The notes under the pieces were generated by a model. The model made no database searches, was not told the DNA's origin, and worked only from the letters and a program-made list of their open reading frames with translations. From assembly GCA_005808665.1 (NCBI GenBank), contig SYLG01000016.1, positions 1-38,857 of the forward strand: a stretch of DNA of 38,857 bases. Direction: 5' to 3'. Made by a program: the position numbers and the translations under genes. Positions 10,018 to 38,857 of the stretch are shown here, piece by piece (the first letter of the stretch is position 1; each line of letters opens with the position of its first letter). Origin of the DNA: Planctomycetia bacterium (lineage in GTDB: Bacteria > Planctomycetota > Planctomycetia > Gemmatales > Gemmataceae).

Positions 10018-13000
10018 ATGGTTATGAAAGAATCGTGTTTAAAAGATGGTGAGATTGCTCAATGGGTCCATTGGCCATCGGAAATGTCTACGCACCCCAA
10101 ATGGGTGCATGTTCGGTCATGTACTTTTTGTGCAGAGGCCATTAACCAGCATCGAAACGGGCCAGTAGCCCATTTTGAGGTGGACACATATTCCACCCAA
10201 GGGATTGCGAAAACCAAAGAATTTCTGCCCCCCCTATCCATTCCCAAAACGGTCGAAGGCTACCGTTTGGATCGCTTTCTTGGCCTTGGATCGAGCGGGC
10301 AGGTTTGGCTTGCCGAAGAATTGGGTGTCGGCCGCCAGGTTGCCATCAAATACCTGAACCAATTTGGCCTTATGGAAAACCGGACAAGGCTCCTCCGTGA
10401 GGCGCGCATTCTATCCTCAGTCAATCACCCTTCCCTCCTTCGCATTTTTGGTTCAGGATCCGATGATTCTTCAGCATGGCTGATTCTGGAATATTGTCCT
10501 GGAGGTAGCCTGGGTGATCTCCTTCGGAATCGCATGAAGTTTTCTCCCGGGGAAGCAGCAAGCCTATTGGTACAAATCGCCGAGGGGCTTGTTTTGGTTC
10601 ACGAGAAAGGGATTATTCATCGGGACATCAAACCGGATAATATCCTTTTTAGTCACGATGGCAAACCTCGTTTGGCGGATTTTGGTTTGGCAAAGCTGAT
10701 TGATGCCACCAGCAGTCTTACCACCAAAGGCGATGTCCTGGGCACCCCGGCGTATATTTCTCCGGAACAGGTCCGTGGAGGAAAAATTGGTCCTCCTGCG
10801 GATATTCATGCTTTGGGGGGGGTGCTTTATCACCTCCTGACCGGCTCCCCTCCCTTTAAAGCTGCGAGTGCCTTTCAGGCGATGGCTTTGGCGGATTCGG
10901 TTCGACCCATTTCCCCCTTAATTACGGACCCCACCCTGCCGGTGGATCTGGTCAATGTTTGCCTTAAATGCCTTCAAAAAAACCCTCGCGACCGGTATCA
11001 TTCGGTTGCGGATTTCGTAACAGATCTCCGCAAATTCCTTGCCGGCCAAAAAGTAATAGCACGACCCTTGGGAATGGTAACGGAAATCATCCGATGGAGC
11101 GCTAAAAATCGCCTGCTTTCCCTATCGATTCTTGCCACCCTTGTGACCATGATTGCCGCCACTTTCATTAGCATGGCTTTTGCGGTAAGGGCCGTAGCCG
11201 AAAAAAATATCGCCGACATTTCCACAACCCGGGCGGAAAACCAATACTACAACTCGCAAATGCGCAGCATACAAAATGCGGTTGACCAAGGGAGCATAAC
11301 CCTGGCCAGAAGAAAATTGGTGGGTTTGGAACCAAACGAAACCGGAAGGGATTATCGGGGTTTTGAATGGTATTATTGGAATCGTCAACTCAAAAAAACC
11401 CCCGAGGAGTTCTCGCTGAATGTCAAATTTGTTCGTCGTGCAACCATTTCGCCCAAGGGAAGCCTACTTCTGTTGGACAGTGTCAACCAATTGCACTCCA
11501 GGGATAATTTAACTGGCTTGACTCATCGGTTGTCCACACCACCAGATTCCAAGTTGGGTGATTTGGATCCCAAAGGACTCTTTGCCCTCATTACCAATGC
11601 CATGGGTAAAGGCCTGCTTCTGGATTCCCGAAGCAACATTTCTCAACCGGTGGGCCCCATGAGTGCCCAGGCTATTTCATCTTTTCTCCTTGGACCTGAT
11701 GGCAAGGAAGCGGTTGTTTTTCCCATGTCCAGAAAGGATCCGATCTACCTTTGGGACCTGTCCAAAAACCAACGCAGCCGGGAAGTGGGTTTGGTTCCAC
11801 CCTTTATTGGTACACCCCTTTTGGACCCAGCGGGGAAAAAAGTAGCCTTTATTTTGAAAGATAATCAGCTTGGGATATTGGACTTGGCAAATGGAAAAAT
11901 GTTGGTTAGCCCAGCCATGGAAGTGGCAATTCTTAGAAAAGTTCGCTGGAATCCCGAGGGGACGGCTCTTGCCGCCATTGGTGTCGATGGCTCGGGATAT
12001 GGTCAATTATTGCGCTGGATTCCCGGAAACGAGCCCATCCTCATGCCTTTTCCTGATGGAAGGCAACCTATCCAATTGGCTGTTTTGGATAAGGAGCATT
12101 TAGCCGTAGTCGATTTTCATAGTACGATTCATTTCTTCAACCCAAAACTGAATCGAACCGACAGCAAAGCAGGCTCGGGCAATGTGCCAACCGCCATTTG
12201 GCATAACGAAACCAAAGTGGGCGTGGTCGATGATTTTGGGAATGCCCAGGAGTTTCATTCCCCATCAGTTGCCAATTCGATGGCACCCAAAAACAAGGAA
12301 ATCCTGTCGGAATTGGCCTGGTTTTGCCCGGACAAACTTTTATTTACAGGTATTTATAACAAGGCGGAATTAAGGGCATTTCCCTTTAACCGGGCGAATC
12401 CCCTGACCCTGGAAAATGGGACCAAACCAATCCACTGTGCCGCCGATCGAAAAGGCCGGGTTTTCGTTGCCATGGGTGATAAAATCCAGAGGATAGATCA
12501 CGATGGCAATGTCCTTTATAGTAGCAAAACCCCCAAACCCGTGCGTTCGCTTGGAGCGGAGGGCGACCGGATATTGGTTTCTCAATCCGATGGGACGGAT
12601 ATCCTTTTGGATGCGGAAAGTTTGGCATTACAATTAACCTTGCCTGGGCCATCAAAAGCGGTAGCCCTTTCACCATCAGATGATAAAGTAGTTTTAATAA
12701 CTCCAACCGGGACCATCAAAATCATTCGAACCCTGGACGGATCCGAGTTGGAAGAATTTGATCCTCAGGGCACCCAGCCCACAGGGGTGACCATTTCCAC
12801 AAATGGCATCGTTTATGTTAGTTATATGGGTGGATTGATTCGGGCCTTTGAACCTGGGAAACGGCATATCCCCAAAGATTTCCAAGGTCACAGTTCCCCG
12901 ATTGCCACACTGGATCTTTCACCCGATAACAAACGGTTGGCCTCGGGAAGTATTGACGGTCAGATTCGGATTTGGGACCTTTCCAGTGGGGAAGATTTAT

Positions 13001-36219: not shown

Positions 36220-38637
36220 ATGGATCGGTTGGATTTGGTACTGAATCAGGAACCTGCATTCAACATCTCCGAAACCGACGCAGATTGGATTGACACTTTG
36301 GTCAAGGAATGGGCGGCCATGCTCCCGGATCAGGCCCCACTGTCCTCCTTTGTTGCCCAAAACACAATTCAGGCACTCCAGAATCTTGATTTTCACAAGG
36401 CATGCAGGGAGGTTACCCAAATATGGGGTGCAAAACCTTACCTATCGTTACTGGAATACCAAAACCTTTTCCTCAATGGGGCCATTAAAAGGATTGATTT
36501 GCTGGAAGGAATCCGCCGCATTGGATGTGACTTTTGGGACACAAAATCCCCAAGCCGTTTAAACCATGCTTTGGCTTTGTTGGTGGCGAAAACACCAAAA
36601 ATTGCCCCTTCCAGTCGGGATTGGTATGTATCAAACCACCTTGCCGGTACACCCGATGACCGGCAACTTTGGGAAGAAATCAGGCGCATGGGGTGGCCGG
36701 TTTCACGAAACCCCGTTGAGGAGGATGCCTCTACACCCCTGATAGGACTTTTCCGCCAGGACTTTGGCGGCTTGCCCAGCCATGATGTAAGGCGTATTCT
36801 TTCCAGCCTGGCAGGGATGTTTCTTGACCGGGGAAGCTCATCAAGGTCAATGCCCGGAAGGGAGCGAGGGTTTGCCGTTTTTTCCTTTCACCTCCTTTCG
36901 GTCACACCACAAATTGAACCATGGCTTGCGGCGGTGGCTACCGAGGCCAGGCTTACCCTCAAGCAAAATAGGTCTTCGCTTGACATCGTCAAAGATCAGG
37001 TTCATTGGCAACAACCCGACCCTCGTTGTCAATCCCATATTGTTCAAAAAACGGTATTAGCCCACTGTGGTTGGGCCTCGATGTTTTGGCGATTGGAGCG
37101 GCATCCGGAGGAGAGGGCATCCCCAAATCTTCCGGTTCATTTGATAGACTATTTGGCGGTCCAATTGGTCATGGAAAAGCACCGATGCCTGGACGCCATT
37201 CCCGGAACTTTTGGCCATGCCCGTTCATGGGAAAGGCCCGGGGAATTGCGCCGGTTCATGGGAGATTGCTCTCCTCCGAGGCCTATTTCTGTTCCGGATG
37301 AGGCATGGGACCTTTTCTGGGCCCTGAAGCACCAAAGGTTTCACGCTGCCAGATTTGCCGCTCTTGATCCCAAGGAAAAGGAAAGCCTGATCGACCTGGT
37401 ATTTCAATTTGGCCGCAGCGACCGACTTGCAGTATGGCAGGAAGCCCATGAAGCGGCTTTCCGTAACCAGGTGTTACAATCTCTCGCCCAAGGTAACATG
37501 CAGAAAAGGGGACGAAATCATACTCCCAAATTTCAGGTGATGACCTGTTTGGATGATCGTGAAGAATCTTTCAGGAGAGCGATCGAGGAATCCAGCCCCG
37601 ATACGGAAACTTTTGGCGGCCCGGGATTCTTCGGATTGCCCATCCGGTTTCAGGGGTTGGGCCAGGTCGAATTCATTCCTTCGTGCCCGATCCATGTTGC
37701 CCCGCTCCATAATGTGAGCGAAATTCCTTCAAGCGATGTTCACCATTCCCGATTGCTTAGGCAACAAAGGGTTAGTCGGGTTATCCACCGCCTGGAATCG
37801 GAAGGGAGAGAAGGAGTTGGTGGACCTCTTTTATTGGGTATCCTCGGCTTGCTTGCCTACCCGGTGATGGTGGCGGGGTTGCTTTTTCCACTTTGGGGCT
37901 TGCGATTCAGGAGGTTTGCAACCCGATTCACCAAGCCAAGAGTTCGAACGGAATTCGAAATGAACGATATCAAAGGCAAACCACCACCTGCCGCCAGGGC
38001 ATTTGGCCTAAACGACCAGATTGCATGCATTGCCCAGCTTTTGGAAAATATCGGCCTCACCCATCACTTTGCCAAGGTGGTTGTGTTTTTGGGCCATGGT
38101 TCGATTAGTGTTAATAATCCCTACAAGTCGGCTTATGATTGTGGGGCCTGTGGGGGAAATGAAGGTCTTGCCAACGCCCGGATCTTTGCTCACCTGGGCA
38201 ATCGTCCCGATGTTCGCAAAGGCCTGGCAAACCGGGGCATTCACATCCCAAACGATACGATTTTTGTCGGCGGAATGCACGACACATGCACCGATGCCAT
38301 CACCCTGTCCGACCTCGACGATCTTCCCATACCCATTGCTGAAAGCGTTTGCGAGGTTCACAAAATCCTATTAAGAGCTGCCAGGGTCAACTCTTTGGAA
38401 AGGTGCCAAAAGTTTCATTCCGCCAAAGGGGTTTTGACCGTTCAAAAAGCTCTCAAACATGTCCAGGGAAGGGGTGAGGATCTTAGTCAACCGCGTCCTG
38501 AATATGGACACTGTACCAATGCGATGGTAGTATTTGGACCACGGATCCTGACTCGTGGCGTGTTCCTGGACCGCCGCTCCTTTTTGGTCTCCTATGGCCT
38601 ACCGCAAAAGTTCTGCAACACAACACCGGTAATATAA
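36220..38637 (+). CDS. dabA: DabA-like inorganic carbon accumulation protein (DUF2309), 3' end disrupted by an IS
   Basis: DabA is the beta-carbonic-anhydrase-like subunit of the DAB CO2/bicarbonate accumulation system, working with the membrane antiporter-like DabB. All predicted active-site residues are present: C443 and D445 in MTCLDDREES, H626 in FLGHGS, and C641 in SAYDCGACGG. The 15-residue His-Cys spacing equals that of the characterised Halothiobacillus protein (H524, C539). After the conserved 'LTRGVFLDRRSFLVSY' the frame enters IS sequence and ends 'FCNTTPVI', so roughly the last 14 codons are not dabA. Characterised homologues continue for well over 100 residues beyond this point. 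The product is therefore truncated and may be inactive. ATG 36220 has only a distant AAGG. No dabB precedes it; one could lie beyond the IS. Confidence 0.9.
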   Translation: MDRLDLVLNQEPAFNISETDADWIDTLVKEWAAMLPDQAPLSSFVAQNTIQALQNLDFHKACREVTQIWGAKPYLSLLEYQNLFLNGAIKRIDLLEGIRRIGCDFWDTKSPSRLNHALALLVAKTPKIAPSSRDWYVSNHLAGTPDDRQLWEEIRRMGWPVSRNPVEEDASTPLIGLFRQDFGGLPSHDVRRILSSLAGMFLDRGSSSRSMPGRERGFAVFSFHLLSVTPQIEPWLAAVATEARLTLKQNRSSLDIVKDQVHWQQPDPRCQSHIVQKTVLAHCGWASMFWRLERHPEERASPNLPVHLIDYLAVQLVMEKHRCLDAIPGTFGHARSWERPGELRRFMGDCSPPRPISVPDEAWDLFWALKHQRFHAARFAALDPKEKESLIDLVFQFGRSDRLAVWQEAHEAAFRNQVLQSLAQGNMQKRGRNHTPKFQVMTCLDDREESFRRAIEESSPDTETFGGPGFFGLPIRFQGLGQVEFIPSCPIHVAPLHNVSEIPSSDVHHSRLLRQQRVSRVIHRLESEGREGVGGPLLLGILGLLAYPVMVAGLLFPLWGLRFRRFATRFTKPRVRTEFEMNDIKGKPPPAARAFGLNDQIACIAQLLENIGLTHHFAKVVVFLGHGSISVNNPYKSAYDCGACGGNEGLANARIFAHLGNRPDVRKGLANRGIHIPNDTIFVGGMHDTCTDAITLSDLDDLPIPIAESVCEVHKILLRAARVNSLERCQKFHSAKGVLTVQKALKHVQGRGEDLSQPRPEYGHCTNAMVVFGPRILTRGVFLDRRSFLVSYGLPQKFCNTTPVI

Positions 38638-38857
38638 ACCCTGGAGAAGGTCCCGATTATCGCTCATGTTTTCCAGTTTCTTCTCGGTTAGGTCATAGAG
38701 TTCTTGTTTGTTTGTCGCCCTGTGTGCTTTGAGTTCGTGGTTCTTCAAATGATTCCACACTTTCTCGTCGGGATTCCAGTCCGGCGAATACGGCGGCAAA
38801 TAAAACACATGCAAGCGCGTTCTCGTCTCGATGAAAGCCTTTGTCATTTTCGATGTG
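38599..38857 (-). CDS. IS630-family transposase, C-terminal part (runs off window)
   Basis: The minus-strand frame is open from the window edge (…TSKMTKAFIE…) to a TAG at 38599-38601; the Met at 38847 is internal, not a start. The segment VFYLPPYSPDWNPDEKVWNH is the hallmark of the IS630/Tc1-mariner DDE domain and carries the final catalytic acidic residue in NPDEKVW. A charged helical tail follows (HLKNHELKAHRATNKQEL), ending in YYRCCVAELLR. The rest of the transposase, including the first two catalytic Asp residues, lies outside the window. The gene is antisense to dabA and overlaps its annotated end by 39 bp. Confidence 0.92.
   Translation of the reverse strand, partial: TSKMTKAFIETRTRLHVFYLPPYSPDWNPDEKVWNHLKNHELKAHRATNKQELYDLTEKKLENMSDNRDLLQGLYYRCCVAELLR
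38600..38857 (-). mobile_element. Left end of an IS630-family insertion inside dabA
   Basis: dabA homology stops at about 38590-38600. The first TA dinucleotide at the junction (38600-38601) is followed by CCGCAAAAGTTCTGCAACA, a plausible terminal inverted repeat. IS630 elements insert at TA and duplicate it. The exact end could instead be the TA at 38593-38594. The other end and the matching TA copy are beyond the window. Confidence 0.75.

Follow-up and report, generated by a model that had tools for sequence, protein, structure and literature searches.

In all probability, the dabA-dabB-sulP cluster of a Planctomycetia bacterium (Gemmataceae), intact in other respects, carries an IS630-family element at a TA within codon 792 of dabA, with recent inactivation of the DAB system and a loss that is probably tolerated. 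The window analysed here is the whole of contig C78 (38,857 nucleotides), which ends inside the element; the source genome (G000) comprises 4.48 Mb in 186 contigs.

Junctions and reconstruction of dabA

The features of the window that bear on the insertion are the following.

36220..38595, plus strand: 5' part of dabA, covering the first 792 native codons; its last base, the T at 38595, belongs both to the IS end and to the native codon TAT
37546..37560, plus strand: zinc and active-site residues C443, D445 and R447 (DabA2 C351, D353 and R355), by alignment
38095..38142, plus strand: zinc residues H626 and C641 (DabA2 H524 and C539) and the residues between them, by alignment
38593..38594, no strand: one of the two copies of the duplicated target TA, the other being at C120:12777-12778
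38595..38616, no strand: terminal inverted repeat of 22 bp, TGGCCTACCGCAAAAGTTCTGC, also present without a mismatch at the opposite end of the IS, on C120
38595..38857, minus strand: IS630-family element, side of the transposase 3' end, 263 bp to the contig end
38596..38637, plus strand: 13 IS-encoded residues, GLPQKFCNTTPVI, and a stop, the present end of the DabA frame
38599..38856, minus strand: last 85 aa of the IS630 transposase (end of DDE_3), open to the contig edge, with DDE_3 and NF033545 matches

The open reading frame at 36220-38637 encodes 805 aa and matches the Pfam DabA family PF10070 with an E value of 1.4e-148 over profile positions 2-633 of 747, the homology stopping at the end of the frame. 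The last native residue is Y792 (codon 38593-38595) and the residues that follow are those of the element, which lies antisense to dabA. A first-pass annotation of the same DNA had described an IS630-family element near the 3' end of dabA and an IS-encoded DabA C-terminus, both of which are borne out by the junctions. It had placed the junction TA at 38600-38601. The element begins at 38595 (TGGCC...) and these two bases are positions 6-7 of its terminal inverted repeat; the target TA is moved by 7 bp, to 38593-38594. The 85-aa minus-strand frame matched DDE_3 above the cut-off (E 7.9e-13) and the IS630 transposase model NF033545 at E 1.7e-12 (profile 236-296 of 299), the latter below the curated cut-off of 100 bits because the sequence is a fragment.

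Searching the whole genome with PF10070 returned only two pieces, the one on C78 (2-633) and C120:12446-12778 (632-747), which together cover the full profile. At the start of contig C120 lies the second end of the IS, followed by a second TA and, from 12778 downwards, by the in-frame DabA C-terminus, dabB and sulP; the first-pass annotation had named a second IS end, a duplicated TA and in-frame C-terminal sequence as support for insertion. When the two flanks were joined with one TA, an uninterrupted DabA of 941 residues was obtained, reading ...FLDRRSFLVSYEPGSDLDGAIIERL..., with neither a stop nor a frameshift in 941 codons; the empty site thus holds a single TA, in frame. On C120, dabB is an intact 729-aa frame (10147-12336, start at 12336) that is 78% identical to dabB of the congener G001. 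A SulP-family-like transporter gene (L011:8588-10147) comes directly after dabB, likewise in G001, which suggests that dabA-dabB-sulP is a conserved cluster; this neighbour might have bicarbonate transport as a putative additional role.

Only 263 bp (C78 end) and 139 bp (C120 end) of the element at dabA are assembled and its middle is absent from the assembly, C78 and C120 being linked through the empty site and synteny and not by a single contig. An uninterrupted allele was found in G001, where dabA is intact and stands in the same order (upstream genes, dabA, dabB, sulP). Its sequence at the place of insertion is FLDRRSFLISYEPETDPQGVIIERL and the reconstructed G000 protein is continuous with that of G001 (FLDRRSFLISYEP). 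This empty site and shared gene order are evidence, separate from the repeat, that C78 and C120 were adjacent until the element came in. The G001 dabA itself lies on two contigs; since these overlap exactly by 149 identical bases, a real break was rejected in favour of an assembly break.

Copies of the element and age of the insertion

G000 contains 31 occurrences of the junction sequence TATGGCCTACCGCAAARGTTCTGCWACA, nearly always at contig ends and with a different flank each time, and a pattern search in 40 relatives found none. Sorted by the base after the repeat, these ends fall into 12 of one side and 19 of the other, which implies at least 19 copies of the element. A TA precedes every end recovered with a probe from which TA had been left out. 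Among the remaining ends, most are of one common variant, to which the C78 end is about 95% and the C120 end about 86% identical; both are minor variants, consistent with their being the ends of one copy. Other ends lie inside long open frames (L017, L024, L027, L028, L030, L091, L097, L099), and the genes named by eye at such ends include an ABC-type permease-like (L028), a cytosine DNA methyltransferase-like (L097) and a protein kinase-like gene (L024). The element seems to have inserted into many genes. A degenerate copy, which seems to be cut short at about 630 bp, is found in L012 (C20) at about 990-1621.

The age of the insertion was approached by relative-rate counts using G001, whose DabA is 65% identical to that of G000, and nine outgroup sequences. 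With G023 as outgroup, unique changes numbered 64 in G000 vs 58 in G001 (p 0.65), split at the element into 55 vs 45 before it and 9 vs 13 after it. Over the nine outgroups there was no consistent G000 excess on either side; one comparison of the N part (G104) gave a nominal excess of 50 vs 30 (p 0.033, uncorrected). Where 22 other homologues are invariant, G000 deviated at 0/45 sites of the N part and 0/18 of the C part. Among the nine nearest sequences it deviated at 10/154 sites of the N part (others 0-9) and at 0/42 of the C part. The lack of consistent acceleration, of loss at invariant sites and of any stop or frameshift places the insertion late relative to the G000-G001 split, and an old pseudogene was rejected on the same grounds. 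From the absence of decay on either side and of the element from the 40 relatives searched, the insertion looks recent, in keeping with the recent loss proposed earlier.

A real insertion could also be polymorphic, with only part of the population carrying it and the assembly displaying the occupied allele; an intact allele may persist at low frequency. The named relatives are metagenome bins and G000 may be one too; the insertion looks recent; and many other contigs likewise stop about 140 bp inside the element, the pattern expected from short-read assembly. However, the assembly contains two pieces only, with no intact copy, and both contigs cross the junction cleanly and extend 139-263 bp beyond it within the element. 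We regard polymorphism as a possible but rather unlikely explanation.

Predicted consequences for the DAB system

A solved structure of DabA2 of Halothiobacillus neapolitanus is available (PDB 9rd0, PMC13144422). The catalytic core of DabA2 is made of two beta-CA-like domains, domain I (341-655) and domain II (281-336 and 656-827), and the active site lies close to where the two meet (PMC13144422). In our alignment, residues 407-789 of the query correspond to 314-683 of DabA2 and the C120 part to 691-808. The cut falls at about position 686 and removes 141/228 residues of domain II (about 62%), including the tunnel residues Val696, Ile700, Ala703 and Pro704 (DabA2 numbering). The predicted product consists of 792 native and 13 IS-encoded residues; it lacks the last 149 native residues, a sixth of the protein, and its second beta-CA-like domain is incomplete. 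The lost part carries 18 invariant sites, vs 45 in the 792 residues that remain. The Cys, His and Cys of the zinc site and the Asp-Arg dyad are all present upstream of the cut.

Retention of function, either by an 805-aa DabA working with DabB or by reassembly of this polypeptide with one of about 135 aa started at an internal TTG on C120, would fit the intact zinc residues, a 135-aa frame that spans most of the lost part and the lack of decay so far. It is nevertheless very unlikely, since the cut interrupts one of the two beta-CA-like domains of the core and takes 18 invariant sites with it. For the internal frame, neither an evident ribosome-binding site nor, over the stretch scanned, a promoter-like site on the same strand was seen, the promoter scan of the C120 junction giving nothing above chance, and the insertion is so young that selection for a split form could not yet be visible. 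We give hardly any credence to DabA being made as two working polypeptides flanking the element, or to the element acting as a switch for DAB through its own insertion and excision. The allele is most likely null, judging by structure and conservation. Four points of the first-pass annotation are supported: insertion of an IS630 element with duplication of the TA, a C-terminus encoded by the IS, intact zinc residues upstream and recent loss. Its alternative of a retained shortened form is not supported, and its TA is displaced by 7 bp.

We propose that an IS630-family transposon entered the TA of codon 792 in antisense orientation, and that the locus would now make a DabA of 805 residues that lacks most of its second beta-CA-like domain and from which the DAB catalytic core could not form. 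Because the dabB ATG overlaps the dabA stop by 11 nt, dabB would probably lose its translational coupling as well, and the DAB system of G000 would have been inactivated recently. Two beta-carbonic anhydrases were found in G000 and a search for the RuBisCO large subunit detected none, so the loss is probably tolerable for the cell. Two papers present MpsAB (DAB-type) and carbonic anhydrase as alternative suppliers of inorganic carbon in heterotrophs (PMC8552792, PMC6689103), which makes a loss without great cost plausible.

Attachment of an IS end to dabA by misassembly is extremely improbable. Contig ends in a repeat of at least 19 copies are prone to misjoining, but here each of the expected junctions lies on its own independent contig, the TA is the same in both and the flanks complement each other, both ends are minor variants of the element and not its commonest form, and the gene order is that of G001.

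dabA in relatives and comparison with known systems

A naturally shorter DabA family ending at the cut, as a Pfam match stopping at 633 of 747 might suggest, is ruled out for practical purposes: profile positions 632-747 are found on C120, and every aligned relative reaches at least residue 926 of 941, leaving no more than 15 residues to the end of the reconstructed protein.

In the family, a DabA match was obtained in 58/95 genomes; the distribution is patchy and some copies are broken. Copies with stops or split on one contig occur in G003, G027, G093, G062 and G113, hinting that dabA loss is recurrent in the family. The broken homologues with in-frame stops or split frames include G003:C1:2429625-2431703, G027:C98:84117-86929, G093:C53:3653-6250 and G062:C3:259273-262100. 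Two contigs, G103:C92 and G105:C506, each carry two dabA copies with dabB-like genes nearby. The congener G002 (79% complete) retains a dabA relic of about 33 codons at a contig end (L063:5060-5200, on G002:C1). This relic lies near a methionyl-tRNA-synthetase-like gene (named by eye), is preceded by a tandem 20-bp repeat, TTGGTGGCAGCCCAATTGTA, and is single-copy, which led us to reject its being a repeat itself. No other dabA and no close dabB match were found in this 79% complete genome, and G002 seems to have lost the operon independently.

A literature search on disruption of dabA by IS elements found nothing relevant. The disruption is ordinary in kind and is placed to the exact base. It shows DAB loss at an early stage, in a genus whose member G002 keeps only a relic of dabA, and an automatic call of DabA presence would wrongly credit this organism with DAB carbon uptake.

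The element resembles the IS630 family (IS630/Tc1/mariner group) in its DDE_3/IS630 transposase fragment, duplicated TA target, terminal inverted repeats and multiple copies; no difference was seen, the middle of the dabA copy being outside the assembly. The cluster resembles the DAB system (DabA/DabB; MpsAB in heterotrophs; PDB 9rd0, PMC13144422) in its equivalents of C351, D353, R355, H524 and C539 and in the dabB gene that follows dabA. It differs in the order dabA-dabB-sulP, in the overlap of the dabB start with the dabA stop and in the interruption of dabA.
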